Assembly: GCA_903955385.1 (NCBI GenBank)
Contig: CAJBNH010000016.1
Location: 1 to 35,663, forward strand
DNA from: an uncultured Myxococcales bacterium
GTDB lineage: Bacteria > Myxococcota_A > UBA9042
Direction: 5' to 3'
DNA: 35,663 nucleotides
Below, in pieces: positions 5,563-35,663 of this stretch (position 1 is its first letter; each line of letters starts with the position of its first letter). The notes beneath the pieces were generated by a model. The model ran no database searches. It was not told the DNA's origin and was given only the letters and a program-made list of their open reading frames with translations. Both the position numbers and the translations under genes were made by a program.

Positions 5563-6915
5563 ATGTCGACCCCCTTCGCTCGCCGTCGCCGCCACTTGAT
5601 GGACGCATACGGCACCGGTTCGATCCTCGTCATCCCCGGCGCGCACATGGTTTCGCGCAACAGCGACGTCGAGCATGACTTCAGGCAGGACAGCGACTTC
5701 TGGTTCCTGACCGGGTTCGACGAGCCCGACAGTCTGCTCGTGCTGGCTCCTGGTCGTGAAGGTGAGGAGACCGTGCTGTTCGTGCGGCCGCGTGACCGCG
5801 ACGCCGAGACGTGGACCGGCCGGCGGGCTGGAGTCGAAGGCGCCGTGGCCGACTACGGTGCCGACAAGGCCTTCCTGGTCGATGCCTTCGAGGTCGAGCT
5901 GGCGCGGCTTTGCGAGAACGCCAAGCAGTTTTGCTTCACGCTGGGTCGCGACCCCGATCTGGACCAGAAGGTGATTCGCGCGGCTCGCCGCCACCGACTG
6001 CAGCCCCGGCTGGGTCTGGACGGGCCCGACCACTGGAGCGACCCTGCCGTCGTTCTGGGAGAGATGCGTCTGCACAAGGATGACGAAGCGCTGGCCGACA
6101 TGCGCAGGGCAGCATCGATCACCGCCCACGCGCACAACGAGGCCATGCGCTTGTCGGCTGCGGGGTTGGGAGAGCGCGAGCTGCAAGCCGCCATCGAGTA
6201 CGTCTTCAAGGCAGCGGGCGCGGACCGGGTAGGGTACAGCTCGATTGTGGCCGCGGGCGCCAATGCGACGATCCTGCACTACAACACCAACCGGATGCAG
6301 ATCGGCGCTCAGGATCTGGTGCTGATCGACGCTGGCGCGGAGTACCGCTATCAATCTGCGGACATCACGCGCACGTTTCCGGCCTCAGGGCGTTTCACGC
6401 CAGCGCAGCGCTTGGTGTACGAGGTGGTGCTTCACGCGCAGAAGGAAGCGATCGACGCTTGCCGCACCGACAAGTCGGTTCAGGACGTGCACGACCTGAC
6501 GGTGCGTCTGCTGACGGAGGGCATGGTGCGGATCGGGCTGCTACAGGGCGAGGTTGCCGCGCTCATCGCCGATAACAGCTTTCGTCGCTACTACATGCAC
6601 CGCACCAGCCACTGGTTGGGCATGGACGTGCACGACGTCGGAACCTACCGGGCCAAGGGCGAGTGGCGTCCGCTGACACCCGGCATGGTCCTGACGATTG
6701 AGCCCGGACTGTACGTTGCAGAGGACGACGAGAAGGCCCCGGTCGAGTTCCGCGGCATCGGCGTGCGCATCGAGGACGATGTGCTGGTGACGGGAGGGGC
6801 GCCGGAAGTGCTCACCGCAGAATGCGTCAAGGAAATCCACGACATCGAGGCCATGGTCGGAAGCGGTCCGCGGTATGTGTCGCGGGTCGTCCTGCCCGGT
6901 GCGCGGCTCGACTAG
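5563..6915 (+). CDS. pepP: Xaa-Pro aminopeptidase (peptidase M24B)
   Basis: This 450-residue cytoplasmic metalloaminopeptidase removes an N-terminal residue preceding proline. An aminopeptidase P N-terminal domain occupies about residues 1-165 (DFRQDSDFWFLTGFDEP) and the creatinase/pita-bread catalytic domain about 170-435. All five dimetal ligands are visible: Asp256 (LIDAGAEY), Asp267 (ADITRTF), His350 (SHWLGMDVHD), Glu380 (TIEPGLY) and Glu404 (RIEDD), matching E. coli PepP Asp260, Asp271, His354, Glu383 and Glu406; the second active-site His is His357. The length is usual for the family. AGGAG lies 8 nt before the ATG. The gene is divergent from the Ala-rich lipoprotein gene and followed by a Ser/Thr kinase on the same strand after a 193-bp gap. 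Confidence 0.97.
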   Translation: MSTPFARRRRHLMDAYGTGSILVIPGAHMVSRNSDVEHDFRQDSDFWFLTGFDEPDSLLVLAPGREGEETVLFVRPRDRDAETWTGRRAGVEGAVADYGADKAFLVDAFEVELARLCENAKQFCFTLGRDPDLDQKVIRAARRHRLQPRLGLDGPDHWSDPAVVLGEMRLHKDDEALADMRRAASITAHAHNEAMRLSAAGLGERELQAAIEYVFKAAGADRVGYSSIVAAGANATILHYNTNRMQIGAQDLVLIDAGAEYRYQSADITRTFPASGRFTPAQRLVYEVVLHAQKEAIDACRTDKSVQDVHDLTVRLLTEGMVRIGLLQGEVAALIADNSFRRYYMHRTSHWLGMDVHDVGTYRAKGEWRPLTPGMVLTIEPGLYVAEDDEKAPVEFRGIGVRIEDDVLVTGGAPEVLTAECVKEIHDIEAMVGSGPRYVSRVVLPGARLD

Positions 6916-6947
6916 TTCAACCCATCGGATTGCTGCGGCATTTTCCT

Positions 6948-6964
6948 ATTCCGACGATCGGAAT
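6948..6964. repeat. Perfect 7-3-7 inverted repeat between pepP and the kinase gene
   Basis: ATTCCGA and TCGGAAT flank the triplet CGA, 33 bp after the pepP stop and about 145 bp before the kinase ATG. A T-rich patch follows only at 6971-6974. The site could be a weak terminator or an operator for the kinase gene. Confidence 0.5.
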
Positions 6965-7108
6965 TCGGGCGCTTTTCGAGGCTGTGTCCAGGTCTGGGCA
7001 TCCTCCGCACGAAAAACTGGACCGCGGCCCACCAACCGCTAGTTTCCGACCTTGAGTGCATCTGCCCGAAGTCGGGTGAGTGTGCTCCGGCAACCGGTCG
7101 GGTGGTCC

Positions 7109-9793
7109 ATGGCGATGATCTCGGGCTCGCTGAATCCCCAGCGCCCCTTCGGGCGCTTCTTGCTCACGGCCAAAGTGGCTTCGGGCGGCATGGCCACTGT
7201 CTATCGGGCAGAGGTCGGCGAGAACGACCCTCTGCACGGCAAGCCGCTTGCCCTGAAGATCCTGCACGAGCACCTGTCCGAGAACTCCGACTTCATCCGG
7301 ATGTTCAAGGACGAGGGCCGCATTGCCCAGCAGTTCGAGCATCCGAACGTCGTCCGCGTGTACGAAGTGGGTGAGGTCGATGGCGCCCACTATCTGGCGA
7401 TGGAGCTCGTCGACGGCCGCGACCTGGCACAGCTGCTCGTCGCGCATCGGCTCAATCGCGTGACGATGCCCCAGGGGCCGGCGTTTGAGATCCTGCGCCA
7501 GGCGCTGACTGCGCTGCGCTACATCCACGGCTACAAGTCTCGCAACGGCCGCGGTCTGGGCATCGTGCACCGTGACATCAGCCCCCAGAACCTGCTGATC
7601 TCTCGCCAGCCCCTGATCAAGCTGACCGACTTTGGCATCGCCCGTGGTGCCCACCGCTCTGACCGCACCCGCACCGGCACGGTCAAGGGCAAGATGCACT
7701 ACATGGCGCCGGAACAGGCAGCCGGCGTTCAGGTCGACGCGCGCGCTGACCTGTACGCGTTGGGCGCTGTCGCCTACGAGATGCTGACGGGCCAGCCGCT
7801 GTTCGGCCCCGGCACCACGGAAGTGCTGCACGAGCGGGCTCGGACCGGTCAGTTTGAATTCAGCGCGAAATTTGGGCGGTTGCCAGAAGACGTCCGCAAC
7901 TGGCTGATGAAGTCGCTGGCGCCCAAGGCGGAGGACCGTTTCCAGTCCGCCGACGCCATGCTTGCGGCGATGGAACGCATCCACAAAGCCTCGCGCACCC
8001 ACTACAGCCCTGAGGCCTTGCTCGGCCTGCTCGACCTGCCCGACGCCAGCCGCAGCAAGCAGCGCGACCAGCGCCTGTTCCTTGATCAGGACATCGACAG
8101 CCCCAGCCGAGCGCGCGCCCGCGAAGTCGCCGCCGAGCCGTTGTCCGAGCTGCGCCCCAGTCAGATCGGGCGCACGGACTTGAACCTGCAAGCGCGCATG
8201 GTCCGATTGGGGAATGACCGCCCTGACGGACGAATCGCTTGGGACGCCCCCATCGCCGAATTGAAGCCTGTGACCGGGGTTCGCGAGCCCATGCCGCGCC
8301 CGTCGCGCCCCAGTCGGTCAGACATGCTTCCCGCGGAGGTCGTCGTCGGCAAGTCGTACGCGCCTGACGACGCCGCGTCCGCCAAGCCCCGTATGTCTAG
8401 CCCGCGACAGCCGGTCGTCGATGCGACCACCGGCCTGACCGGTATGACGTCAGCCTCCTCGGAGGCAACCCGGCACCGCTCGGCCGCGAAGGGTCAGACC
8501 CTTGTGGCTTCTCGCAAGCTGACCCCCGATCAGAAGGGACTGGCGATGGCCAGCATCGTCGCGTGGTCGTGTGGCGCGCTGGTTGCTTTCGCCGTGCTCC
8601 TCGAGGTCGTGGGCATTCAGGTGCAGCTGCCTGAGATGCGAGACGACATGGTGGCGAGCCTGTGGGACGAGGACGAGCCGGCTGTCGCGCGTTCGGACGC
8701 TACGGCCGTGGCTTCGGCGGAGGCAGTTGCCACTGTCTCGCACGACCGCGTGACATCGACCAAGAGCCCGCTGCAGTTGGACAAAGCTCGCCTGATTTCG
8801 AAGACGGTGGCCCGCCAGGAGTTGCCGGTCGAGAAGGCCGCGCCCCCGTCGCCCGTCGAGACTGCCGCCCGCCAGGCTCGCGAAGAGCGGATGGCGCAGC
8901 GCATGGTCGAGGAAAACGCCGAGCGTGCGGCGTGGGCCGGAAAGCCGCTGGAGACGGTCGAGAAGCCGACGCCGAAGTCCGCAGAGCCCACCGAGAAGGT
9001 CGAGCCCGCAGCCAAACCCACGCCCGTGGCCAAGGTGGCACCCGTCGTCAAGCCGGAACCCGTTGCCAAGGTCGCCGTCAACGCCAAGGTCGCCGTCAAC
9101 GCCAAGGTCGATGCGCCTGCGAAGGTCGTTGTCGCCTCCAAGCCTGAGGCCGTTGCCAAGGCAGAGTCCGCCGCCAAGCCTGAGCCCGCTGCGAAGTTGG
9201 TCCCTGTCGCGAAGCCCGTGCAGGACGAGCCCATCGCCCAGAAGACGGCGCCCAAGTCAGACGCCGCTGAAGGGCGGCCGACTGTCGCCAAGCCGGGAAG
9301 CAAGGTCGTGGTTGCGCCCAAGCCCGCTGTCAAACCCGTCACCAAGGTCCCTGGCGTCGCTGCCGTCAAGCCTGTGGCCAAGCCCGCTGCCAAGGTCGTC
9401 GCCAAGCCCGCTGCCAAGGTCGTCGCCAAGCCTGCTGTCAAGGTCGTCGCCAAGCCTGCTGTCAAGGCAGCTGGCAAGCCCGTCGCAAAGACTGCGACCA
9501 AACCCGTGGTCAAGTCGGCCGTCCAGCAGGCCACGAAAGCGCCGACGAAGCCGGTGGCCAAGAGCACGATCAAGCCCGTCTCCAAGACCAACCTGAAGCC
9601 CGCTGCCAAGGTGACCACGAAGCCGGTGGTCAAGGGTCAGGCCAAGTCAACCGCCAAGCCCGTTGGCAAGTCCGCGGTCAAGCCCGTCGTCAAGGCCGCC
9701 GCCAAGCCCGTCGCCAAGGCCGCTACCCGTCCCGGCGCCCCCGCCACGGTCCGCGTTCCCAAGGCTGCTGCGCGTCCCGCCGGCACCCGCTAG
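7109..9793 (+). CDS. Receptor-like Ser/Thr protein kinase with Lys/Pro/Ala-rich C-terminal tail
   Basis: This 894-residue eukaryotic-type kinase has its catalytic domain at about residues 14-285. It has a Gly-rich loop (VASGGMATVY), Lys50, the catalytic loop HRDIS with Asp156, the Mg-binding DFG with Asp174, and MAPEQ. A low-complexity juxtamembrane region leads to one transmembrane helix at about 477-503, so the kinase should be cytoplasmic and the remainder periplasmic. From about residue 620 the tail is dominated by Lys, Pro, Ala and Val in units such as AKPVAKV, strongly basic, ending a few residues before the stop. The tail resembles histone-H1-like or cell-wall-binding basic repeats; no known ligand domain (PASTA, WD40) is present. 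The start is uncertain: the ATG at 7109 follows GGGTGG, but the frame is open upstream to a TTG at 7052. Confidence 0.93.
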   Translation: MAMISGSLNPQRPFGRFLLTAKVASGGMATVYRAEVGENDPLHGKPLALKILHEHLSENSDFIRMFKDEGRIAQQFEHPNVVRVYEVGEVDGAHYLAMELVDGRDLAQLLVAHRLNRVTMPQGPAFEILRQALTALRYIHGYKSRNGRGLGIVHRDISPQNLLISRQPLIKLTDFGIARGAHRSDRTRTGTVKGKMHYMAPEQAAGVQVDARADLYALGAVAYEMLTGQPLFGPGTTEVLHERARTGQFEFSAKFGRLPEDVRNWLMKSLAPKAEDRFQSADAMLAAMERIHKASRTHYSPEALLGLLDLPDASRSKQRDQRLFLDQDIDSPSRARAREVAAEPLSELRPSQIGRTDLNLQARMVRLGNDRPDGRIAWDAPIAELKPVTGVREPMPRPSRPSRSDMLPAEVVVGKSYAPDDAASAKPRMSSPRQPVVDATTGLTGMTSASSEATRHRSAAKGQTLVASRKLTPDQKGLAMASIVAWSCGALVAFAVLLEVVGIQVQLPEMRDDMVASLWDEDEPAVARSDATAVASAEAVATVSHDRVTSTKSPLQLDKARLISKTVARQELPVEKAAPPSPVETAARQAREERMAQRMVEENAERAAWAGKPLETVEKPTPKSAEPTEKVEPAAKPTPVAKVAPVVKPEPVAKVAVNAKVAVNAKVDAPAKVVVASKPEAVAKAESAAKPEPAAKLVPVAKPVQDEPIAQKTAPKSDAAEGRPTVAKPGSKVVVAPKPAVKPVTKVPGVAAVKPVAKPAAKVVAKPAAKVVAKPAVKVVAKPAVKAAGKPVAKTATKPVVKSAVQQATKAPTKPVAKSTIKPVSKTNLKPAAKVTTKPVVKGQAKSTAKPVGKSAVKPVVKAAAKPVAKAATRPGAPATVRVPKAAARPAGTR
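9068..9103 (+). repeat. Perfect 18-bp tandem duplication in the kinase tail
   Basis: Two identical 18-bp copies (9068-9085 and 9086-9103) encode KVAVNA twice. Copy-number change would stay in frame. Confidence 0.9.
9377..9466 (+). repeat. 24-bp tandem repeat in the kinase tail
   Basis: Units at 9377, 9401 and 9425, and a partial one at 9449, encode AKPAAKVV and AKPAVKVV. The first two copies are identical and the next two share the same Ala-to-Val change, which suggests stepwise recent duplication by slippage. Confidence 0.9.
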
Positions 9794-19449: not shown

Positions 19450-22400
19450 CTAGGGGACCTGAGCCGTCAGCAGCCGCAGCCCGCCGTCCGTCTCCCACGC
19501 CAGCGTGAAGCGCGTACCGGAGGGGTCGATCACAAGGTCGCTGAGGCCGCCCGAGCTGGTGACGACGGAGCCCGAAGCGTGGCTGACGAAGTCGGTGCCG
19601 ACCGTCTCGATCGCCTTGACCAGCAGCGTCCCATCGGCCACCGGTGTGACCCGCACCACCTGCACCTGCCCGCTGGCCGGCATCGACCACGCAACCAGAA
19701 AGTCGGCCGTTCCCGGCAGTTCAGCGAGCCGGAAGGCCTGCAGTACGGGGGGGCCCAACAGGTCAGCTGGTGGTGTGAACAGCTTGAGCATCGCCGGCTG
19801 GACCGCTGCGGGCGCCGACGGGTGCGACAGGGCGAAGGCAAGGAAGCCCTTGACCACGCCCTGATGTTTCGCCGTTCCGGCAACCAGAATGCCGAGTGCC
19901 TGGCCGTCAGAATCCCAAGCAGCATCCAGACTTTGGTAGGCCACCTCAGTGGCTACGTAGGCCACGCCGGACGCCACCGCAGCTGCCTTTGGCGCCAGAG
20001 CTCCGGCCGCATCGAACGTCACGACCTCTACGGTCGGCTGCGGGTCGAGGCCCACAGACTGGTGCTGCACGATCGTCAGGACGGCCTGCTGGGCACCCCA
20101 CACGACCCGCATCGGCCGAGCCGCCGTACCGACGCCAACGGAATCCCCCAACTGCGCAACAGGCAAAGCGGTTCCGGGGCCGCCCCAAGTCGTGGTCGCC
20201 AGACCGCTCCAGCCCAACGGCCCCAAAGGAGACGCACGCAGCAACAGCCCGCCCAGCCCGGTCGGGTCCGCGGGGTCCGCGCCGAACCCGGGCAACAACA
20301 CCACGACCGGCCGCGAGGTCAGTCCGGACAGCAGGTTGGTGGGGCAGGGCGCAGCGGGCGCAACGGTCAGCGCGGACGTCGCCGGATCCAGAACCGCCAG
20401 CCGCGTTTGCCCGCCCGTCGCATCGAGCGGACAGCTGCTGGCAAGAGCCCCACCCTCGACCCAACCCGCTACGAGCCGCGACGGCTGGTCGGGATGCGCA
20501 ACGACAATCGGAAGGGTCGCGCACCAGCCCTGAGCTTCGGGCGGCGGCTTGGGCTGGAAGTAGTGGAACGCAGGGGCACCCTTGACCGGGTCCAACGAGG
20601 CCACGCAAACGCCTGAGAAAACACCCTGATCCGGCGAACAGGCCTTGGTCTGCGCGGTGATCACCAGTCGAGGCAGGGTGTCGCCGCTTCCGGCCGGTTG
20701 CCACCGCAAGCTCGGCGCCTGAGGCTGCGGAGCCAGCGTAGGGTCGAACGGCACAAGGGCCGCCCCAGCCACGCCCGGCTGCGTCACGGTCAGGCAGAGG
20801 TTGTCGATGCACTCGTGCATGGCGGGACACGTCGAGACGGGGATGCATCCCAGCTGCGGGTCGCACTGCGGTGTCGTGCAGCCCGTGGCGGCTGCGGGGT
20901 CGCAGACCTTGACCTTGCCCCCCAGGCACTTGCCGGCGGCGCAGGCATCCTCGACCGTGCAAGCGTTGCCGTCGTCACAGGCGGCCGCGATGGGCTCGTG
21001 GGAGCAGCCCGTCTTCGATGAGCAGGTATCGGCCGTGCACGGGTTGCCGTCATCGCAGACGTTCCCGAGCATTCCGATACACGCCCCGCCGGAGCACGCG
21101 TCGGCCGTCGTGCATGGGTCGCCGTCGTCGCACGGGGTCCCCTTCAACACCGACCACTCGGTCTGCGACACCTGAGGCAGGCACCCAAGGCAGGGCAGCT
21201 CTGCGGACGACTGGCCCGGTACCTGACACATGTTGTCGATCAAGCAGGAGGCGGGCTGGACCGTGTGCAGGCAGTCCCCCGTCATGCAGGCGTCCTCCGT
21301 GCAGTCGAACCCGTCGCTGGGGCAGGCCGAACCGTCCGCCTGCTTCGTCCACGAGCACCCGGTCTTCTTGTCACAAGCGTCCGCGGTGCAAGGATTGTCG
21401 TCGCTGCAGGTCAAGGGCTGACCCACGCACGTTTCTCCCAAGCACGCATCCGAGCCAGTGCACGCGTCACCGTCGTTGCAGGCGCCGGTCACGGGGACGA
21501 ACAGGCAGGGCTGCTCGGCGGCAAGCGGGTTGCAGCCGTTGAACGTGCACGCGTTCTGGTCGTCACAAACCAGCTCGGAGCCCTTGCATTTGCCGTCCGA
21601 CAGGCACAAGTCCATCACAGTGCAAGCATTTCCGTCGTTGCACGGCAGGCCCACGCGCTGGGACCAGCCGGTGTTCTTGACCTCGGATTGACACGCAAGA
21701 CAGGGGTCCGCCGGGTGTGGCAGGCCGTCGACCAAGCAGGCGCCGCCGATCAAGCAGGAACCAGGCGAGATCCCTGTGTGTTTGCACGCGCCGCCCGCGC
21801 ACTGGTCGATGGTGCAGGCGATCCCGTCGTCCTGACAGGGCGCACCCACGGCGTCTTCATGCTGGCAGCCCCCCGTCTTGGGGTCGCAGAGGTCGATGGT
21901 GCACTCGTTGCCATCGTCACACGTCTTGGCCGTGCCGTTGCACTGGCCGCCGATGCACAAGTCTCCAAACGTGCACGCGTTTCCGTCGTTGCAGGGGGTA
22001 CCGGGAACCAGCAGGGCGACGCACCCAATCGTCGATGAGCAGCTCTCAATCGTGCACGGGTTGCCGTCTGCGCAGTCCACCTTCGTTCCGCGGCAGCCAC
22101 CGTCGACCGCACAAACGTCACCCGACGTGCAGGCATCGGCATCGTCACAGGTCGCCAGCACTTGCTTGACGTGTTCGCACCCCTGGTCGGTCACGCACTG
22201 GTCCAATGTGCACGCGTTGCCGTCGTCGCAGTCCTCTGTGCCGGCGCACGCACAAACGACCTGATCCGACATGCACTTTGCGGCGTTGCAGTGGTCGCCG
22301 CTCGTGCAGACCTTGCCGTCGTCGCACAACGCATTGTTCGGCGTGTGCGTGCACCCTGCGGCGGCCAGACAGGCGTCGTCGGTGCACGGGTTGTCGTCGT

Positions 22401-23952
22401 CGCAGTCCAGCAGGCCCAAGGCAACTCCCGCGCACTTGCCGGCGACGCACTGGTCACCGATCGTGCACAGGTTCTGGTCGTCGCACGGCCCGGCCGCTGG
22501 CGTGAACTGACAGCCAAGCTCTGGGGTGCAAGTGTTCTTTGTGCAAGTGTTCTTGTCGTCGCATTGACCTTGCTCTCCGACACACTTGCCGCCCAGGCAT
22601 ACGTCGACGAACGTGCACGCGTTGCCGTCGCTGCAGGGAACGTTTTCCAGCGGCGTCCAGCCCGTGGGGTCGCGAGCGGGGTTGCAGATCAGGCAAGCGT
22701 TCGCGTCTGCCTTGACCCCTGCGGGCACACACGTCCCGGCGATCTTACAGACCGACGTCAAGGGGACAGCGATGCAGGCGCCACCCATGCACATGTCTTC
22801 GGTGCACGGGTCGGCATCCGCCAGACAAGACCCGCTGTCAGGAGTGTGCGTGCATCCCTGTTGTACCTGGCACACATCGAGCGTGCAGGAGTTGCCGTCG
22901 TCGCAACCGACTGGGGCCCCTGGCGTGCAGGTGCCGTCGCTGCACGAATCGCCCTGCGTGCAGGGATTGCCGTCGTCGCACGGTCCGGGGCTGGGTGAAG
23001 TGACGCACCCCACGTTCGGCGCGCACGAAGGCGTCAAGCAGGGGTCGTCGTCCGAGCAGACGACCGGCGTGCCGTGGCACATGCCGGCCTCGTCGCAGGA
23101 CTCGTTTTCCGTACACGCATCGCCGTCGACACAGGGACCGGCATAGACCTGGGTCCACGCCATCGCATTCTGGTCGGGCAGACAGCGAGCGCAGGGTTCG
23201 GTCGACGACGCGACGCCCCCTACCTCGCACTCGCCGTCGATCAGGCAGTTGCCGGCGGTGACCGTCATCTCGCACTTGCCGTCCAGGCACGCTCCGGTGG
23301 TGCAGGGCAGGTTGTCGGAGTCGCAAGAGGTTGCGTCGGCAAACGCAACCCACAGGCAACCGTTCGGGGTGCAAGTGTCGAGGGTGCAAGCGTTGCCATC
23401 ATCGCAGGGCTTGCTCTTGGGAGATGCCGAGCACTCGCCCAGCTTGCACGTGCCACTTGTCGGGCAAATGGTGTCGGTGACACAGGTCGCGTCTTCCGCA
23501 AGCGGTGCGACTGTGCAGGTGCCCACCCCTTTGTCGCAAACCGCGGCTCGGCAAGGCGGCAAGATTCCGTACACGTTGCGGCAGTCTTCGTCGACCGCGC
23601 ACGTCGGCTTGCCTGTCGTGTCGACGTCTGCATCGACGGTATCGGCGCCAGTGAGGTCGCTGGTCGCGTCGGTCGTCCCACTCACGTCTGTGATGTCGGG
23701 GACTTCTTCGATGCACAGCCCGGCGAGGCAGCGCCCGGTGGCGCACTCGCTGTCGAGCTTGCACGCCGTCTTGGTGGGCGGAGGCACCCGCAGGCAACCG
23801 GTCAAGCACAGCCCCACCAACCAGGCAGCCACCACGGCAATGCGCGCAAACCGTTTCAAGAACGGCAAGTTGCGCGGGTCCGTGTGCTGTGGCGAGGAGG
23901 CAACCAAAAGCAGCTCCGTACGGGCGACAGGCCCGCACATAAACCTTCGCAT
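19450..23952 (-). CDS. Giant Cys-rich modular lipoprotein
   Basis: This 1500-residue secreted lipoprotein has an extended N-region and then a signal helix ending in lipobox CLTGC (Cys about 53). An Asp/Thr-rich stretch and two divergent Cys modules lead to about 26 tandem modules of about 25 residues (about residues 182-1018). They alternate between a type reading CDDGNxCTxGDxCxxGxCxG and a type reading CDDGNPCTxDxCxxxxGCxH. Four longer inserts with a CLIxGxC...PCLxC...W pattern interrupt the array at intervals. The C-terminal part (about 1050-1500) lacks Cys clusters and is strand-rich, possibly a propeller. AAGGAT precedes the ATG at 23952, though a start at 23940 is possible. Regular Cys spacing implies a rod of small disulphide-bonded domains, suggesting an adhesin or spacer; function is unknown. 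Confidence 0.9.
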   Translation of the reverse strand: MRRFMCGPVARTELLLVASSPQHTDPRNLPFLKRFARIAVVAAWLVGLCLTGCLRVPPPTKTACKLDSECATGRCLAGLCIEEVPDITDVSGTTDATSDLTGADTVDADVDTTGKPTCAVDEDCRNVYGILPPCRAAVCDKGVGTCTVAPLAEDATCVTDTICPTSGTCKLGECSASPKSKPCDDGNACTLDTCTPNGCLWVAFADATSCDSDNLPCTTGACLDGKCEMTVTAGNCLIDGECEVGGVASSTEPCARCLPDQNAMAWTQVYAGPCVDGDACTENESCDEAGMCHGTPVVCSDDDPCLTPSCAPNVGCVTSPSPGPCDDGNPCTQGDSCSDGTCTPGAPVGCDDGNSCTLDVCQVQQGCTHTPDSGSCLADADPCTEDMCMGGACIAVPLTSVCKIAGTCVPAGVKADANACLICNPARDPTGWTPLENVPCSDGNACTFVDVCLGGKCVGEQGQCDDKNTCTKNTCTPELGCQFTPAAGPCDDQNLCTIGDQCVAGKCAGVALGLLDCDDDNPCTDDACLAAAGCTHTPNNALCDDGKVCTSGDHCNAAKCMSDQVVCACAGTEDCDDGNACTLDQCVTDQGCEHVKQVLATCDDADACTSGDVCAVDGGCRGTKVDCADGNPCTIESCSSTIGCVALLVPGTPCNDGNACTFGDLCIGGQCNGTAKTCDDGNECTIDLCDPKTGGCQHEDAVGAPCQDDGIACTIDQCAGGACKHTGISPGSCLIGGACLVDGLPHPADPCLACQSEVKNTGWSQRVGLPCNDGNACTVMDLCLSDGKCKGSELVCDDQNACTFNGCNPLAAEQPCLFVPVTGACNDGDACTGSDACLGETCVGQPLTCSDDNPCTADACDKKTGCSWTKQADGSACPSDGFDCTEDACMTGDCLHTVQPASCLIDNMCQVPGQSSAELPCLGCLPQVSQTEWSVLKGTPCDDGDPCTTADACSGGACIGMLGNVCDDGNPCTADTCSSKTGCSHEPIAAACDDGNACTVEDACAAGKCLGGKVKVCDPAAATGCTTPQCDPQLGCIPVSTCPAMHECIDNLCLTVTQPGVAGAALVPFDPTLAPQPQAPSLRWQPAGSGDTLPRLVITAQTKACSPDQGVFSGVCVASLDPVKGAPAFHYFQPKPPPEAQGWCATLPIVVAHPDQPSRLVAGWVEGGALASSCPLDATGGQTRLAVLDPATSALTVAPAAPCPTNLLSGLTSRPVVVLLPGFGADPADPTGLGGLLLRASPLGPLGWSGLATTTWGGPGTALPVAQLGDSVGVGTAARPMRVVWGAQQAVLTIVQHQSVGLDPQPTVEVVTFDAAGALAPKAAAVASGVAYVATEVAYQSLDAAWDSDGQALGILVAGTAKHQGVVKGFLAFALSHPSAPAAVQPAMLKLFTPPADLLGPPVLQAFRLAELPGTADFLVAWSMPASGQVQVVRVTPVADGTLLVKAIETVGTDFVSHASGSVVTSSGGLSDLVIDPSGTRFTLAWETDGGLRLLTAQVP
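20898..23410 (-). repeat. Array of about 26 Cys-rich coding modules with a higher-order period
   Basis: Each module is about 75 bp and encodes C-D-D-G-N-x-C-T followed by two or three more Cys. Modules alternate between two types. A longer module containing PCLxC and a conserved Trp recurs four times (protein text NCLIDGEC, VCKIAGTC, SCLIGGAC, SCLIDNMC), each preceded by a module of C-T-x-D-x-C form. The DNA copies are diverged, so the array is old. Confidence 0.9.
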
Positions 23953-28069: not shown

Positions 28070-29590
28070 TCAGAAAGGTCCGCGGGGCTGCACGTAGTGC
28101 GGTTGCTCGCGGGGCGAGGCCCAGCGCTGGAACAACTCGCGCTCGAACGGGTCGGCGCGGCGGATGCGCGTCATCAGAAAGTCCATGATACCCATGTGCT
28201 TCTTGCACCACGTCGAGTCTGCCATTCGCCCGTGCAGGCTGCCCTGCTCGCCGTAGTTGTGCACCGGACAAACGCCGCACCAGGGCTTGTAGGCGCAGGT
28301 GGCGCAACCGGGCTGCCCTTCCAACGTTGAGGCAAGCGACATGGCGCGCACGACGGCCCCGGAGACTACGTCGCGGTAGCGGTCCTGGCCCACCACGCCG
28401 ATTTGGAACGTGGCGTCGCCCTTGCGGTCGACCATGCGCCCCTCGTCGCAAGTGAATAGCCGCCCGTCGTGGTTGTAAGCCACCTGCCCGATGCCCGCAC
28501 CGCATGGAGAGCGGATGTCCAGGAAATTCGGCTCGTCATGCCCCAGAATCTTGCCCAAGAACACCGCCGCAGTGCGCTCTACGAAGTCCACGCCTTGGCG
28601 GTTCAGGTCGACGACGGCCTCGAACGCCTCGCGATAGAACGCAAGGAACGCGTCCATGTCGTAGCCCAACCGCTCGCGAGCGACGCTGGCGAATCCGAAC
28701 GGGTCCAAGTGGCGCAGGAAAATGCCGCGACAGCCCACGGCGACGTACTCGTCGATCAACGCCTTGGCGTGGGGCAGCGACAGGCGGGTAACGGTGGGCA
28801 GTGCCTCGACTCGGTAAAGCGTCGGGTCCAACCCCCGCTGTCCGTACGCTTCGTTGATGCGGCGGATCCAGCGCACGGCAGTCTCGTGGGACGCGCCTTC
28901 CTTCCACACCCGCACGCCGTCGTGCAGGAATGCGGGACCGTCCAAGCTGGTACAGATCTGCACTTGGCGATCGAGCAGCCACGCCAACTTCTCTTCGTCC
29001 ATCAGGCTCAGGTTCGTCACCAGCGCGAACATCAGGGACTTGCCGGCGATGGCGTTCTTCTGCCGCGCGTACTCGATCACGTGTTCCACAACCGGCCAGT
29101 TGACCAGCGGTTCTCCGCCCTGGAACTCGATGGTCAACGAGGGCGACGTGGTCTCGAACGCGAAGTCCACCGACCGCTCCGCGATCTCGATCGACATGTC
29201 GGTCTCGACGGCATCCATGCGCGCCCGCGACGCGTGGCAGTACTGACAGGTGTGGTTGCAGCGCAGGGTCACGACCAGAATGTGCAGGTTCGGTCCGAAG
29301 GCCAGGAACCGCTGCTTGCGACGCACCCGCTCGGTCAGCAGGTCGCGGTCCAGTCCATCGATCCAAAAATGACGTTCTGCCAAGCGGACATGCAGTTCTT
29401 CATCCGGTGTCACCCGGCCCTCGAGGACTCGCGTCAGTTCGTCGTCCTCCACGAAGGCGTGGTCGCCAAAATCCGTCGTCAACAGCCACCGTCCGTCTAC
29501 GCGGCGGCGCTGGAACGGGACCAGCGCGTCCAAACGCAGCCGCTGCAGCGACACGCTCTGGACGGGTAGGGGGGGGCTGCGCAGGGTCAT
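28070..29590 (-). CDS. hxsB: HxsB-type radical SAM/SPASM peptide maturase
   Basis: This 506-residue radical SAM enzyme resembles HxsB of the His-Xaa-Ser RiPP-like system. An N-terminal domain (about 20-95; RRRVDGRWLLTTDFGDHAF, LAERHFW) precedes the radical SAM core. Its cluster motif is Cys111-x3-Cys115-x2-Cys118 in VTLRCNHTCQYCHASR. GGEPLVNW (the GGE motif), ALVTNLSLMD and CTSLDGPAFLHD follow. The C-terminal SPASM region starts at Cys363 (RSPCGAGIGQ) and continues with FTCDEGRM, GCATCAYKPWCGVCPVHNYG and a last Cys in STWCKKH. These would bind two auxiliary clusters. AGAGGTGGG precedes the ATG at 29590. HxsA, HxsC and HxsD, the usual partners, are not in the window; the immediate neighbours are a Crp/Fnr regulator and another radical SAM protein. 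Confidence 0.9.
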   Translation of the reverse strand: MTLRSPPLPVQSVSLQRLRLDALVPFQRRRVDGRWLLTTDFGDHAFVEDDELTRVLEGRVTPDEELHVRLAERHFWIDGLDRDLLTERVRRKQRFLAFGPNLHILVVTLRCNHTCQYCHASRARMDAVETDMSIEIAERSVDFAFETTSPSLTIEFQGGEPLVNWPVVEHVIEYARQKNAIAGKSLMFALVTNLSLMDEEKLAWLLDRQVQICTSLDGPAFLHDGVRVWKEGASHETAVRWIRRINEAYGQRGLDPTLYRVEALPTVTRLSLPHAKALIDEYVAVGCRGIFLRHLDPFGFASVARERLGYDMDAFLAFYREAFEAVVDLNRQGVDFVERTAAVFLGKILGHDEPNFLDIRSPCGAGIGQVAYNHDGRLFTCDEGRMVDRKGDATFQIGVVGQDRYRDVVSGAVVRAMSLASTLEGQPGCATCAYKPWCGVCPVHNYGEQGSLHGRMADSTWCKKHMGIMDFLMTRIRRADPFERELFQRWASPREQPHYVQPRGPF

Positions 29591-29622
29591 GGAACCCACC
29601 TCTGGGGATGCGTGCGAGGCGG

Positions 29623-30300
29623 TCAGGAGCGTGCCGCGGCCGACGAGGAGCGGGGAATCGGGCGCGTGGGCACTCCCTTGCAGATCCAGCGGCCGCGTAC
29701 GGTCACGAGGCCCGCCCGCGCCAGCCTCTGCACCACGCGAGACACGGTGGCCGGGGCCAGCCCCACCAGATCGGCAAGCTCCTGTCGCGTGATCGGCAGT
29801 CGCGTCCACGAGCCAGGTTCGGCGCGGTCGGTCAGGTCGAGCAGCAGGGCGCGCACCCGCTCCTCCGCGGTCATCGCACCGACGAGCAGGACAGAACGGC
29901 GCAGGGAAGTTGCTTCCTCGCTCAGGGCCTTCACCACCGCAACACCCTGTTCCGGAGTGCCGCGGATGCGGTCCAACACGGCCTGAACCGGAACCCGGCA
30001 CACCCTGGCGTGCGTCACGGCTTCGACGGTGCCTTGGTAGACGCCGTGGGATAGCGCCTCGGTCCCGATGAGATCACCCGGCTTGATCAAGCGGATGCCC
30101 TGACTGCGACCATCCGGAAGGGTGCGCGTCTCCTGCAGAAAGCCATCGACCGCCGTGAACACCGCATCGGCGACGTCGCCCTCCAGGTACAAGGTGCTGT
30201 GGCGCTGGATGTTCAGCTGGTTGGCCGGCCGACCGTTGCAGGTCGAACAGCTGGGCCGCAGGTGAATCTTCTTCTCGCAGACGGGGCAAGGCGTGGGCAT
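29623..30300 (-). CDS. Crp/Fnr-family transcription regulator with four N-terminal cysteines
   Basis: This 225-residue regulator has an N-terminal CPVC (Cys5, Cys8) and CSTC (Cys18, Cys21). A cyclic-nucleotide-binding-type beta roll occupies about residues 25-125 (LYLEGDVADAVFTAVDGFLQ, RLIKPGDLIG), with a dimerisation helix and a C-terminal winged HTH at about 165-215 (TRQELADLVGLAPATVSRVV). FNR senses oxygen through N-terminal Cys and a [4Fe-4S] cluster; here two CxxC pairs could bind a cluster or zinc. The cAMP-binding Arg/Ser signature is not evident. AAGGAAG precedes the ATG at 30300, and a palindrome of the Crp/Fnr type lies 47-62 nt upstream, suggesting autoregulation. hxsB starts 32 bp downstream, so the two are probably co-transcribed. 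Confidence 0.93.
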   Translation of the reverse strand: MPTPCPVCEKKIHLRPSCSTCNGRPANQLNIQRHSTLYLEGDVADAVFTAVDGFLQETRTLPDGRSQGIRLIKPGDLIGTEALSHGVYQGTVEAVTHARVCRVPVQAVLDRIRGTPEQGVAVVKALSEEATSLRRSVLLVGAMTAEERVRALLLDLTDRAEPGSWTRLPITRQELADLVGLAPATVSRVVQRLARAGLVTVRGRWICKGVPTRPIPRSSSAAARS

Positions 30301-30384: not shown

Positions 30385-31599
30385 TCAACAGACGAAAGCA
30401 TCCAGATCGTAAGGCGCCGCGCGGGGACCACCGGAAGGCCATACGGTCTCCAGTGCGCGCTTGAACTTATCGAGTTCCCGCTCCGCCTCGTCCAAGGGCA
30501 GGGCATCGGGACTTCGCGCGTCCCCAGCACCCTCCGCTCCCTCGAACGGGCGGTACGGCGACAGGCTGACGACGTCCTGGACACCCAGTGGCATTCGGCG
30601 CAGGACCTCGGTCGTGTCGTGCAGGTGCCGGTCCGCCCACGCGCTACCTCCAACGCCCACCAGCACCGTCAGTCCGACCGACAGCCCCGCTTCGGCCAGC
30701 CGTTCCACAGCGGACTGCACATCCCGCAGCGGTTCGCGCCGACTCAGCGTCTCCCGCAGGTCGACGCACCCGCTCTCCAGCCCGAGATAGACCCGCCGCA
30801 ACCCGGAGTTGCGAAGCTCGATCAGGTCCGTAACCTGACGCCGCAAGACCGAGTCCGGCGCACCAAAGGCATCGACGGCAGCGAACTGGAATCGAGTCGG
30901 AATCGCCCGCAGCTGATCGAGCAGCACCTCTTGGGGGGGCAGGAAGGCGTCAGCGTCACCCAAGAAGGCCGTGCGGCGCATGTCCAACGCCGGTCCAAAA
31001 TAGCGTGCAACCTCGTCCAAGTGCTGGAGCCATGTCAGACCCTTGCGCACCGACGTCGGCACGTTCGCATATAAGGTGCAGTAACTGCAGCGGTTCCACG
31101 CGCAGCCGCGAGTCGACTGCAAATACACCACACGGTACAGCTCTCCCGGCACCGCGGGTACGGGCCCTCCGTAGAGCGCCTCGAACCGCGCTGCATCCGC
31201 GGCGTGCTCAGCAGGTCCTTGCGTCGCGGTGAAGGCCAGAAAGCGCTCGGCAGCGTCGCGCAATGCAACGACAGTTCCTGAAGCCGGGACGCGTGTGCGC
31301 AGGTCTTCCACCAACGCGGCCGTCTCGCTTTGCACGCGAGCCAACACCAAGTCGGCAGCTTCTCGCTCGATCCGCCGCGCCGGACGTGTGCCGACCAGCC
31401 CAGCTACCATCCGATGGTCCAGCCCCCGTCGGTAGTAGCGGCCGTCGCGAATGCCCCCCAGCCAACGCCCGCCCGCGTCCCACGTGTCGACGCGATGTCG
31501 CCCCAGCGCTGCGGTCAGCGACCCAGGCTTCAGCGAGAGGTGGACCGGACCAGCCGTCGTGTCGGGGAAGGTGACGATCAAAGCGGCTCCGCACGGCAA
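30385..31599 (-). CDS. Radical SAM protein with CX4CX2C cluster motif
   Basis: This 404-residue protein has an N-terminal domain (about 1-150) and a radical SAM core. The cluster-binding cysteines are Cys166, Cys171 and Cys174 in TRGCAWNRCSYCTLY, spaced CX4CX2C rather than the standard CX3CX2C. That spacing is found in a COG1032-like radical SAM group of unknown function with GCxxNxCxFC motifs. FLGDADAFLPP, RRVYLGLESG and LTVLVGVGG are the later core strands (the HemN/Elp3/MiaB-like order). No SPASM or B12-binding domain is seen. The start is a TTG at 31599, with a second TTG at 31581 possible. It is divergent from the multihaem cytochrome gene and upstream of the Crp/Fnr and hxsB genes on the same strand. 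Confidence 0.88.
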   Translation of the reverse strand: MPCGAALIVTFPDTTAGPVHLSLKPGSLTAALGRHRVDTWDAGGRWLGGIRDGRYYRRGLDHRMVAGLVGTRPARRIEREAADLVLARVQSETAALVEDLRTRVPASGTVVALRDAAERFLAFTATQGPAEHAADAARFEALYGGPVPAVPGELYRVVYLQSTRGCAWNRCSYCTLYANVPTSVRKGLTWLQHLDEVARYFGPALDMRRTAFLGDADAFLPPQEVLLDQLRAIPTRFQFAAVDAFGAPDSVLRRQVTDLIELRNSGLRRVYLGLESGCVDLRETLSRREPLRDVQSAVERLAEAGLSVGLTVLVGVGGSAWADRHLHDTTEVLRRMPLGVQDVVSLSPYRPFEGAEGAGDARSPDALPLDEAERELDKFKRALETVWPSGGPRAAPYDLDAFVC

Positions 31600-31743: not shown

Positions 31744-34497
31744 ATGACGAACTATCTGAAGACGACTGTGATGCTTGCCGTTTTGGCGCTCGTTGCCGTG
31801 GGCTGCGAGGGTGCTGCGGGCAAGAACGGGACCCAGGGGTTGACGGGCGCGACGGGTGAAACCGGCCTCCAGGGTACCCAAGGCGATCCCGGCAAGGACG
31901 GCGCTGACGGCACCAACGGTACCGACGGCCTGCCCGGCACCAAGGGCGACCAGGGCGACCCCGGCACAAAGGGCGACAAGGGCGACACCGGAGCTGACGG
32001 CAACGTCGCTTCCGCCAAGGGCACCCTGTCCGGCACCGTCAACGACAAGGACGGCAAGGGCATCCAAGGCGCGACGGTCACCGTCACCCCCGTCGGCCAG
32101 ACGGCGACGACCGGTGCCGACGGCGCGTTCGAGCTCAAGGATCTTCCGGTCGGCGCATACTCCGTCGCCTTCGAGAAGGCGGGCTTCCTCCCCAAGACCA
32201 TCGCTGCCGTGGGCGTCGTCGCGCTGAATACGACGACCCTCGCTGTGGCCCTCGAGGTCGATCCGGCCGCCGGCAAGACGCCGACGATCACCGTCACCAG
32301 CCAGCACTCGGTCGGCTTCGGCAAGGCCGTCGACGTCCAGGCCACCGTGGTCGACGACGACAACGCCGCGATCGACCTGAAGTTCACGTGGACGCAGACC
32401 GCCGGTCGCACCGTCGTGCTCGCGGGCGCCACGACCGCCAAGCTCTCGTTCACCACCAAGGCCGTGTCCGAGGCCAAGGTCATCGAGTTGGCCCGCTTCG
32501 GCGTGCTGGGCTTCACCCCCGACGACGTCGACTACGCCTTCGAACTCGCCGTCACCGACCCGCAGGGCCACGTCGGCAAGGCCACCGTCACCGTCACCGC
32601 CGCCGAGGTCGCTTCCAGCCTGCGCAACGTCCCGAACGGCGTGGTGGTGTACCTGCAGGGCGACGACCTCGACAGCGCCGGCAAGGACAAGACCGAGTGG
32701 GCATGGACGCTGTCGGCTCCCGTCGGCTCGACCGCCAAGCTCGACGACGCCGCCACGCAGTTCCCGCACTTCACCCCCGACGTGAAGGGCACCTACAAGC
32801 TCGCCGAGACCAAGGCCGCCAAGACGATGGACATCCTCGCCGGCACGTGGACGGGCGTGATGGTCGGCGACGACATGTGCACGGTCTGCCACGATGGTTC
32901 GACCGCTGCCGACAAGTTCACGGGGTGGAAGAAGACCGCTCACTACAGCGCGGCCCAGCGCAAGCTCGACGGCGTCTCTGGCGCGTACTTTCCCAAAGAA
33001 TGCATGGCTTGCCACTCGGTCGGCTGGTCGCCCGTCGCCAACAACGGCGGGTTTGACGACGTAGCCGCCACCAGCAACTGGATCTTCGACAAGCCCGCGG
33101 CCGGCACCTGGGCCAAGCTCCTGAGCGACAAGCCCGAATTGGCCAAGCTGGCCGGCATCCAGTGCGAGAACTGCCACGGTCCGCAGAGCTCGTCCGCGCA
33201 CAAGGGCGGCGCCTCGCGCGTCTCGTTCAGCAACGAGGTGTGCGCTGCGTGCCACCAGGAAGAGCCGTACCACTACAAGCCCGAGCAGATGGAGGGCACC
33301 GGCCACTCGAACGCCGAAATCGCGGTCACCGAGGCCTCGTGGGAGAACCGCAACGCCTCGGTCGGCCACTGCGGTCGCTGCCACGCGGCGCAGGGCTTCG
33401 CCAAGTACGCCAAGCAACTCGAGCTCGGCTACTCCGGCAACCTGACCATGGACGGCAAGCTTCCCGCCGCCGACGGCAGCAACGTGCTCGTGTTCGACGT
33501 GGCCAACAAGGCCGCCCAGACCGCGAAGTCCGAGAAGTGGGCTCGCGACAACGGTCTGGACAAGGCCAACGTCCAGCCGGTGACCTGCACCGCTTGCCAC
33601 GACCCCCACGAGGCGACGAACCCCGCGCAGCTGCGCCTGTACAACGACATCGCCGAGCTGCCGAACGGCATCAAAGGCATCAAGGGCGTCGGCGCGGGCG
33701 CGCTGTGCATGGCCTGCCACAACACGCGCAACGGCGAGAAGAACGACTTCGTGGCGGCCCCGACGGGCTTCACGGGTCCCCACTACTCGTCCGAGACCGA
33801 CGTGCTCTACGGCTTCAACGCGTACTTCATGCCGCGCTGGACGCCCTCGCACCACTTGGCGATCAAGGACACCTGCGCAGGCTGCCACGTGGCCATTCCG
33901 ACCGACGCCCAGGCCGCCAAGAAGCAGGCCAGCAACCACGCGTTCAGGACCGACACGACGATCTGCAAGAAGTGCCACACGAACGTGGACGGCGAGGGCT
34001 ATCAGGAAGCCGTGCACCTGCAGATGACGGGTCTGGAGGCGTCGATCACTTCGAAGGTCAAGGCGTTGGTCGTCGAGGCCCTGGCTGCCGGCAAGAAGGT
34101 CTACGTTCGCGCGAACGACCCCGTGACCGACTACTACAGCAGCCCCAAGGACCCGACGGTCGAGATCAAGGTCGCGCCCGAGTCCGTGATGCTCGAGCAC
34201 GTGCACGGCCAGATCTCGTTCCGCTTCGTCATGAAGGACGCGATCGAAGTTCCTTGGGTCACCGCGGCGGGAGCCGATGCCGGCAAGACCAACATCAAGG
34301 AACTGTACTGCCAGTCGGGCACCATCAAGGTGGTCGCGGTGGACAACACGTCGACCACGCTGACGGCGCCGGCGTCGACCGTGATGAAGGCCATCTGGAA
34401 CTACGATTTGCTGCACAGCGACGGGACGCACGGCGTGCACAACCCGACGTTCTACCAGAAGGTTATCGAGGCCACGACGGCCGCGCTCGCCAAGTAA
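31744..34497 (+). CDS. Collagen-like nonahaem c-type cytochrome lipoprotein
   Basis: This 917-residue lipoprotein has lipobox VAVGC (Cys21). Residues 26-86 form 21 uninterrupted Gly-X-Y triplets, collagen-like and rich in KGD, DPG and GAD. A carboxypeptidase-regulatory-like beta domain (about 92-170; GTLSGTVNDKDGKGIQGATV) and strand-rich domains to about 370 follow. The haem region has nine CXXCH sites, starting at Cys379, 420, 474, 500, 543, 615, 655, 711 and 741. The C-terminal domain (about 746-917) has no haem site. Haem spacing and CHxxH surroundings recall cytochrome c554/hydroxylamine-oxidoreductase-type multihaem proteins, but I cannot place it in one family. GGGGGAG precedes the ATG. 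A surface electron-transfer role is inferred from lipidation, haem number and the next multihaem gene. Confidence 0.93.
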   Translation: MTNYLKTTVMLAVLALVAVGCEGAAGKNGTQGLTGATGETGLQGTQGDPGKDGADGTNGTDGLPGTKGDQGDPGTKGDKGDTGADGNVASAKGTLSGTVNDKDGKGIQGATVTVTPVGQTATTGADGAFELKDLPVGAYSVAFEKAGFLPKTIAAVGVVALNTTTLAVALEVDPAAGKTPTITVTSQHSVGFGKAVDVQATVVDDDNAAIDLKFTWTQTAGRTVVLAGATTAKLSFTTKAVSEAKVIELARFGVLGFTPDDVDYAFELAVTDPQGHVGKATVTVTAAEVASSLRNVPNGVVVYLQGDDLDSAGKDKTEWAWTLSAPVGSTAKLDDAATQFPHFTPDVKGTYKLAETKAAKTMDILAGTWTGVMVGDDMCTVCHDGSTAADKFTGWKKTAHYSAAQRKLDGVSGAYFPKECMACHSVGWSPVANNGGFDDVAATSNWIFDKPAAGTWAKLLSDKPELAKLAGIQCENCHGPQSSSAHKGGASRVSFSNEVCAACHQEEPYHYKPEQMEGTGHSNAEIAVTEASWENRNASVGHCGRCHAAQGFAKYAKQLELGYSGNLTMDGKLPAADGSNVLVFDVANKAAQTAKSEKWARDNGLDKANVQPVTCTACHDPHEATNPAQLRLYNDIAELPNGIKGIKGVGAGALCMACHNTRNGEKNDFVAAPTGFTGPHYSSETDVLYGFNAYFMPRWTPSHHLAIKDTCAGCHVAIPTDAQAAKKQASNHAFRTDTTICKKCHTNVDGEGYQEAVHLQMTGLEASITSKVKALVVEALAAGKKVYVRANDPVTDYYSSPKDPTVEIKVAPESVMLEHVHGQISFRFVMKDAIEVPWVTAAGADAGKTNIKELYCQSGTIKVVAVDNTSTTLTAPASTVMKAIWNYDLLHSDGTHGVHNPTFYQKVIEATTAALAK
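31819..32001 (+). repeat. Collagen-like Gly-X-Y coding repeat
   Basis: Twenty-one consecutive triplets starting with glycine lie directly after the lipidated Cys. Nucleotide copies differ, so this is a diverged repeat. Confidence 0.95.
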
Positions 34498-34555: not shown

Positions 34556-34685
34556 GCGAAACGCTCAGCACGTCATGCATTGCTCGTTGGCCCTGGCCGG
34601 ATCTCCCGCCAGTGCGCCCCGGATCACCCCGACTCCTGCTTGCAGGGGTCCCCGTTGCCGCGATGCCCGCGGCCGTGATGCCACC

Positions 34686-35663
34686 ATGAGGATCCGCCGA
34701 TCCCTGTCGTCGCCGTCACGTGGCTCTCTCGTTGCGCTGCTTGCCTGCCTGCCCTTGTGGGCGGCCTGCGACACGGCGCGCGAGCTGCCACCTGACGCCG
34801 ACGCGACCCAGACGTGCACCGCCTGCCACGGCAGTGTAGACAACTCCGCTCCGCCCAAGGCGATTGGCGGCAAAACTGCCACCACCGAGCGCGGAGTGGG
34901 TGCGCACCAGGCTCACTTGAAGGCCGGTCTCACCACCGCCGTCGAGTGTGCGACGTGCCACGTCGTACCAAAGACGACCTACGAGGGCGTCCACCTGGAT
35001 GACAAGGTCGACGTGATGTGGACCGGCATCGCGCTTGCCAACGGCGCCACGCCCACCTGGGACCCGGCGACGCAGACCTGCTCTGGAACCTACTGTCACG
35101 GAGCGACGTTGAAGGGCGGCGGCAAGGTCAACTCGCCGAAGTGGACGCTTGTCGACGGCTCCCAGAAGGCCTGTGACGCTTGCCACGGCGCGCCGCCGCC
35201 CGCCCCGCACCCGACCAAGGGCGCGTGCGCGGGTTGCCACGCCGACACGGCGGGTCCGGGACTCTCCATCGCCAACAAGGCCTCTCACATCAACGGCAAG
35301 GTCGACATCATGCTTGCCGCCAACGCCCCCTGCGGCAGTTGCCACGGCGCGCCCCCGCCCTCGCCGCACCCGGCGGCGACGGCGTGCGAGACCTGCCACG
35401 GCGAGACGGCCGGCCCGAACATGACCATCGCGAACGCGGCCAACCACATGAACGGCAAGGTTGAATTTGCGGTCGGTCCTGGATCGTGCGCGGGCTGTCA
35501 CGGCGCCCCGCCCGCTGCGCCGCACCCGACCGGCAACGCCTGCGAGACCTGCCACTCGGAAACTGCCGGTCCCGGCTTGACCATCATCGGTAGCTCTCTG
35601 CACCGCAACAAGAAGACGGATGTCTCGGTCGTGAATGGTGCGGACTGCGCGGGCTGCCACGGC
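34686..35663 (+). CDS. Tandem-repeat multihaem lipoprotein (CXXCH/CX4CH), 3' end outside window
   Basis: The frame is open from an ATG at 34686 to the right edge (326 residues). A signal peptide ends in lipobox LWAAC. Ten haem-binding sites are visible: nine CXXCH (CTACH, CATCH, CDACH, CAGCH, CGSCH, CETCH, CAGCH, CETCH, CAGCH) and one CX4CH (CSGTYCH). From about residue 160 the protein is built of repeats of about 45 residues with CHGAPPPxPHP, a Cys-x-x-Cys-His site, TAGPG and a His-containing helix. The mixed CX4CH/CXXCH pattern is that of the Geobacter-type outer-surface multihaem family. No good ribosome binding site precedes the ATG, and the 188-bp gap holds a strong hairpin. It is probably functionally paired with the upstream nonahaem protein. 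Confidence 0.9.
   Translation, partial: MRIRRSLSSPSRGSLVALLACLPLWAACDTARELPPDADATQTCTACHGSVDNSAPPKAIGGKTATTERGVGAHQAHLKAGLTTAVECATCHVVPKTTYEGVHLDDKVDVMWTGIALANGATPTWDPATQTCSGTYCHGATLKGGGKVNSPKWTLVDGSQKACDACHGAPPPAPHPTKGACAGCHADTAGPGLSIANKASHINGKVDIMLAANAPCGSCHGAPPPSPHPAATACETCHGETAGPNMTIANAANHMNGKVEFAVGPGSCAGCHGAPPAAPHPTGNACETCHSETAGPGLTIIGSSLHRNKKTDVSVVNGADCAGCHG
35167..35663 (+). repeat. Tandem haem-binding coding repeat
   Basis: Three full units and part of a fourth, each roughly 135-150 bp, encode CHGAPPPxPHPxxxxC followed by a second CXXCH and a TAGP segment. The array continues past the window edge, so the total haem number is unknown. Confidence 0.85.

Follow-up and report, generated by a model that had tools for sequence, protein, structure and literature searches.

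Introduction

Porin-cytochrome (Pcc) conduits are known from Geobacter (OmbB-OmaB-OmcB) and, in a two-gene version, from Anaeromyxobacter; the survey of these systems, which makes no mention of collagen, found only a porin and a cytochrome of 12-14 haems in the Anaeromyxobacter clusters, with no outer cytochrome gene (PMC4245776). Bacterial collagens form triple helices without hydroxyproline and, in Scl1/Scl2, Lcl and BclA, use a Gly-X-Y stalk to distance another domain from the cell surface; the domains carried are adhesins or spore-surface domains, and the review of these proteins includes no cytochromes (PMC8968730). Our study concerns a gene, here called collagen9, whose 917-aa product joins a lipobox, a collagen stalk and nine haem-binding motifs in one chain and appears to belong to a porin-cytochrome conduit. 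It is a complete coding sequence at 31744..34497 on the + strand of contig CAJBNH010000016.1 (GCA_903955385.1), from an uncultured Myxococcales bacterium (Myxococcota_A, UBA9042), and this whole contig of 35,663 nt is referred to as the window.

Both Pcc conduits and bacterial collagens were already known, and what is new here is a collagen stalk on a conduit-associated cytochrome. The first-pass annotation of the window knew of no described protein with this domain order, and we likewise found no collagen-cytochrome fusion in the open-licence full-text literature, which is no proof of absence. Surface cytochromes must reach their acceptors through a thick polysaccharide coat. This is known to be achieved by secreted shuttles, by filaments of stacked cytochromes or by lipoproteins close to the membrane; a rod of collagen, whose length could be tuned, would add another way. 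The finding connects bacterial collagens with extracellular electron transfer, which are treated apart in the literature found, and offers a sequence marker for tracing electron conduits in uncultured myxobacterial relatives.

The closest described systems each share part of this arrangement. As in Geobacter Pcc clusters, which also have an outer-membrane multihaem cytochrome, porin-like and multihaem genes stand together, but this locus has two further multihaem lipoproteins, one of them collagen-stalked, and the likeness seen is one of gene content. OmcA/MtrC-family proteins are also multihaem lipoproteins with beta domains, and those that have been characterized sit on the cell surface; the collagen9 protein contains an MtrC/MtrF II-IV domain, and some OmcA/MtrC relatives in the class bear the same kind of stalk, but it differs in having nine haems and a C7/c554-like haem region. 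Unlike Scl1/Scl2, Lcl and BclA, it would be anchored by a lipidated N-terminus that leads straight into the collagen. Geobacter PgcA is likewise extracellular and multihaem and contains a repetitive spacer, for which collagen is named as a comparison, but it is a triheme protein, and the available part of its description reports no Gly-X-Y collagen (PMC5732950).

Domain architecture of the collagen-stalked cytochrome

The first-pass annotation had read a lipidated cysteine, a collagen-like stalk, a carboxypeptidase-regulatory-like domain, further beta domains and nine CXXCH sites from a single open reading frame (ORF), and Pfam and AlphaFold2 confirmed this order as lipobox Cys21, collagen, CarboxypepD_reg, PKD/Ig-like domain and nine CXXCH. 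The ORF is a real gene, as its third-position GC content (GC3) of 0.92 fits the expectation for the surrounding DNA of 67 % GC; this codon usage and the conservation of the repeat in relatives rule out a wrong-frame artefact of GC-rich DNA. The gene is present as a single copy in its own genome. Full-length relatives within the same family share 46-48 % identity, those at 42-45 % come from metagenome-assembled genomes titled Myxococcales or Deltaproteobacteria, many of them from a fen, and members are also found in f18, f21 and f58, three other families of this phylum. Searching the protein and its domains against databases, a check that the annotation had proposed, returned the collagen, CarboxypepD_reg, PKD-like, Cytochrome_C7 and MtrC/MtrF matches given below, with haems and stalk retained in relatives.

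The signal peptide (31744..31806, +) ends with the codon of the lipid-bearing Cys21 in the lipobox LVAVG-C, a pattern that is kept before the collagen in relatives and which suggests a lipidated outer-membrane lipoprotein. The stalk (31810..32007, +, residues 23-88) begins two residues past this cysteine. Every third residue between 20 and 86 is a glycine, giving 23 triplets, of which 22 are uninterrupted in the mature chain; the tract called earlier was thus correct, while its count of 21 triplets was not. Given that glycine has a frequency of 0.083 elsewhere in the protein, 22 in register have p ~1e-24, and the Pfam Collagen match (PF01391, 4.9e-8) is over its curated cut-off. The X positions contain no proline and the Y positions 13 %. 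With a collagen geometry of 0.286 nm per residue, the stalk would measure ~19 nm if it forms a triple helix.

K-G-D/E pairs exceeded the level of shuffled sequences in five members of the family, including the window stalk (p 0.008); in G021, G014, G005 and G003N (G and L numbers are our labels for genomes and loci) the observed level was reached in 0/2000 shuffles, and G007 showed no enrichment. Collagen sequence and length vary among relatives: the longest Gly-X-Y runs range from 9 to 31 triplets, and one more remote member reaches 6. All relatives with a complete N-terminus nevertheless have collagen after the lipobox. The stalks of G014 and G021 would reach ~27 nm, and the fen members carry short Pro-rich repeats of 9-12 triplets (8-10 nm). 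No flanking trimerization domain was recognized next to the stalk, and stalk length showed no visible trend with partner haem number, for which the cases are too few. In two relatives (L022:2283-5279 and L029:7548-10517) the collagen is broken by G..C.V..n.dG...I.C.dG repeats containing cysteine pairs, which may form a small module between collagen segments.

The nonahaem region (32878..33978, +, residues 379-745) has CXXCH motifs at residues 379, 420, 474, 500, 543, 615, 655, 711 and 741, and all nine are invariant in 17/17 aligned family members. Among the histidines outside these motifs, five are invariant and two more are present in 16/17 members of the same alignment. Pfam assigned Cytochrome_C7 (1e-13) and the MtrC/MtrF II-IV domain (1.5e-10, above its cut-off). 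Three more specific identities were rejected: TIGR03507, the OmcA/MtrC decahaem family (ten haems, cut-off 209 bits), gave no match up to E 1 to this nine-haem protein; the UshA-like (seleno)protein model NF041198 scored 46.1 bits over residues 372-507 alone, against a curated cut-off of 275 bits; and the profile built from the collagen9 family matched NrfA weakly (E 0.0009). AlphaFold2, run as a single chain from 11 sequences, modelled the haem region with pLDDT mostly 24-43 and gave no confident model for this region or the collagen.

Between stalk and haems lie two beta domains that were modelled with confidence. The CarboxypepD_reg/transthyretin-like domain (32020..32262, +, residues 93-173) matched PF13620 at 1.9e-16 over residues 94-171, and its VIA comparison with carboxypeptidase D (5aq0) gave Z 14.9 and a root-mean-square deviation of 1.1 over 80 residues. 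The PKD/Ig-like domain (32272..32610, +, residues 177-289) matched the K319L-like PKD family (PF22352, 6.4e-7) at residues 194-285 and had VIA matches over 177-289. The C-terminal domain (33991..34494, +, residues 750-917) combines a long helix and a beta-sandwich with pLDDT mostly 75-91, the confident part being residues ~755-890. A fold search with the whole model gave matches on the beta domains alone (VIA coverage residues 90-289). As the CarboxypepD_reg domain is missing from the fen branch, the constant parts of the family are the lipobox, the collagen, the PKD-like domain, the nonahaem region and the C-terminal domain. Tandem pairs of collagen nonahaem genes were seen in G290 and in G358 (L067:6722-13544); the G358 contig also has a collagen OmcA/MtrC gene close to the pair.

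Genomic context and a putative porin-cytochrome conduit

Downstream of collagen9 lies the 5' part of a multihaem lipoprotein gene with CxxCH and CxxxxCH motifs (34686..35663, +; TIGR01904, 4.9e-17), whose ORF opens at 34575 with a likely Met at 34686, and the window contig ends inside it. The remainder appears to lie at L044:1-954 on another contig of this genome, C43, which was found by matches to the 13-haem and porin-like proteins of a relative. The first 141 bases of C43 are identical to the last 141 of the window, with no other exact match in the assembly; because of this unique end overlap the two contigs probably adjoin. The joined order would be collagen9, the CxxxxCH cytochrome (16 CXXCH and 2 CxxxxCH in this genome), a porin-like protein of 516 aa (L044:954-2504) that is also present in relatives, a 13-haem lipoprotein of 373 aa, a histidine kinase and a sigma54 regulator. 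The electron-transfer role at the outer membrane proposed in the annotation agrees with this porin-like gene and the two further multihaem lipoproteins downstream.

The same four-gene order stands on one contig in G014 and G021, in both of which an NrfD/Fe-S/4-haem module lies upstream of collagen9. In G006 and G007 the order is cytochrome, porin-like protein, 13-haem lipoprotein and collagen9. The conduit directly adjoins collagen9 in these four genomes and in G019, whose contig begins within the porin-like gene, and every genome read has the 13-haem gene beside the porin-like one. Of 22 genomes of the same family, 14 have the porin-like protein, including 8/8 collagen9 carriers, and 0/8 genomes without it have the nonahaem protein (hypergeometric p ~0.009, kinship ignored). 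The module of cytochrome, porin-like protein and 13-haem lipoprotein is common without collagen9, which is therefore an added part of the conduit cluster.

The conduit itself is a conserved three-gene unit (L162, L163, L164, L168-L174 and others) comprising a CxxCH/CxxxxCH cytochrome of 16-34 haems, the porin-like protein and the 13-haem lipoprotein; a sigma54-type regulator or kinase is near it in many genomes, and a 4-haem/Fe-S/NrfD module in some. Searches with the porin-like proteins gave nothing meaningful in Pfam and no match among PDB profiles, and these proteins apparently form an unnamed porin family. Their alignment (14 members) displayed period-2 hydrophobicity with z 6.9 and no helical periodicity; the same measure gave z 0.9 and 1.1 when applied to two alignments of cytochromes. 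A cruder peak count placed the beta periodicity at ~1.7 sd, so the evidence for a barrel depends on the measure, and a structure model from two sequences was useless (pLDDT 29). The periodicity supports, without proving, a beta-barrel.

Collagen stalks on other cytochromes

Fusion of collagen to a cytochrome is not unique to collagen9: at least five types of cytochrome in this class, counting the nonahaem, bear collagen. OmcA/MtrC-family decahaems with collagen scored past the curated cut-off of TIGR03507 at L034:2015-5446, L165:366-5345, L166:10476-13607 and L067:1374-4112, the last with 12 triplets and no Pfam report for its collagen. Collagen was also found on HAO-like octahaems (L012 and L014), an NrfA-like protein (L016) and DmsE/GSU2203-like cytochromes (L011, L013 and L020); most of these other collagen cytochromes have a lipobox and some a CarboxypepD_reg domain. 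A collagen-OmcA/MtrC gene lies a few kilobases from the same conduit in G034 and G050, and in G014 and G021 the region around collagen9 also contains a collagen OmcA/MtrC decahaem.

Across 46 genomes of the class, sampled by the strongest Pfam matches and with many loci cut, at least 18 of 65 distinct collagen ORFs carry three or more CXXCH; the genome-wide background is expected to be around 1 % of genes. The haem excess of lipobox-anchored over other collagens (9/20 vs 9/45) was not significant (Fisher p 0.07). The recurrence on unrelated cytochromes suggests that a collagen rod works as a means of reach. Collagen triple helices might even be a general electron-transfer scaffold of the class, with tunable trimeric rods, repeated independent fusions, outward or inward haem spacing and exchange between chains, a generalization that we offer only tentatively.

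Proposed role and alternative explanations

We somewhat favour the collagen9 product being an outer-membrane lipoprotein whose collagen rod bears a nine-haem electron-transfer domain, serving the porin-cytochrome conduit as an accessory cytochrome at its distal end. The protein would be exported by Sec and lipidated, with haem attachment in the periplasm, and the head would be held by a triple helix of three lipid-anchored chains, a trimer that, as the annotation suggested, would gather 27 haems. An inner-membrane quinol-oxidizing module would reduce periplasmic carriers, electrons would cross the outer membrane through the 13-haem cytochrome within the porin-like barrel, and the long CxxCH/CxxxxCH lipoprotein would take them on to the nonahaem head, which, up to ~19 nm off the membrane, could reach past the polysaccharide layer and hand them on to other cells, humics or minerals. 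The triple helix and trimer, the outward orientation, and the direction and partners of electron transfer are the conjectural parts of this scheme, and extracellular placement appears likelier than a periplasm-spanning one. This role is favoured by the nine invariant CXXCH, the collagen kept after the lipobox, the adjacency to and co-occurrence with the conduit, and the strand periodicity of the porin-like protein, as well as by the collagen-bearing decahaems of the OmcA/MtrC family, whose characterized members are surface proteins, beside the same conduit (G034 and G050) or in the collagen9 region (G014 and G021), and by the NrfD/Fe-S/4-haem module ahead of collagen9 in the latter two genomes. 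Several observations weigh against it. Six same-family genomes hold the conduit without the nonahaem protein, which is thus not essential to it; nonahaem and conduit are on different contigs in G003; the fen relatives carry an NapC/NrfH-type gene beside collagen9, with no porin-like gene in the fen loci read; the low-confidence haem model provides no usable haem geometry; and a rod of 19 nm, if rigid, would hold the head away from the porin, a gap that the long cytochrome would have to span if the rod does not lie flat.

The stalk may instead point inward from an anchor in the inner leaflet of the outer membrane, the rod spanning the periplasm and the nonahaem, near quinol-oxidizing enzymes, feeding the 13-haem/porin conduit. 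Outer-membrane lipoproteins face the periplasm by default, the stalks of the window (~19 nm) and of G014/G021 (~27 nm) are near the periplasm width, and collagen9 follows an NrfD gene in G014/G021 and precedes the NapC/NrfH-type gene in the fen branch; however, the fen stalks would be too short to resemble this width at 8-10 nm (9-12 triplets), and the same stalk occurs on OmcA/MtrC-family proteins, whose characterized relatives are at the cell surface, and we regard this orientation as unlikely. It also seems unlikely that the Gly-X-Y tract is a flexible spacer in a monomer, with no triple helix. The lack of a recognized flanking trimerization domain, the proline content (none in X, 13 % in Y) and the Cys-bearing inserts of two relatives would suit a spacer, but the glycine register is perfect while other positions change, K-G-D/E pairs are in excess in five relatives including the window, with Pro-rich triplets in the fen relatives instead, and hydroxyproline-free bacterial collagens do make triple helices (PMC8968730).

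A head that acts as a stalk-displayed reductase for a soluble substrate, such as a nitrogen or sulphur oxyanion, is in our judgement quite improbable. Residues 372-507 match UshA-like/c554-type multihaem stretches, the family's own profile has its weak match to NrfA, and HAO- and NrfA-like cytochromes of the class also bear collagen. Nine haems would call for nine distal ligands, but only seven histidines outside CXXCH are conserved in at least 16/17 relatives, which leaves room for an open haem site. Nevertheless, no catalytic CXXCK or known active-site motif was found in the protein, the enzyme matches are partial and the gene stands beside an electron conduit. These three alternatives are not mutually exclusive.

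Other features of the window

Beside collagen9, on the - strand at 28070-30001 and 30385-31599, is a pair of radical SAM genes, one encoding an HxsB radical SAM maturase (TIGR03978, 7.5e-156) and the other a second radical SAM protein. G003 has a comparable pair at L038:7376-8917 (-) and 6092-7351 (-), consisting of an HxsB (1.2e-152) and a protein resembling the second one, after the collagen cytochrome and in a different orientation. A brief look at ORF lists and one small ORF translation found no HxsA substrate or HxsD for the pair. Further upstream, 19450-23952 (-) encodes a protein of 1500 aa with many Dictyostelium-type Cys-rich repeats (PF00526, 4.3e-45).
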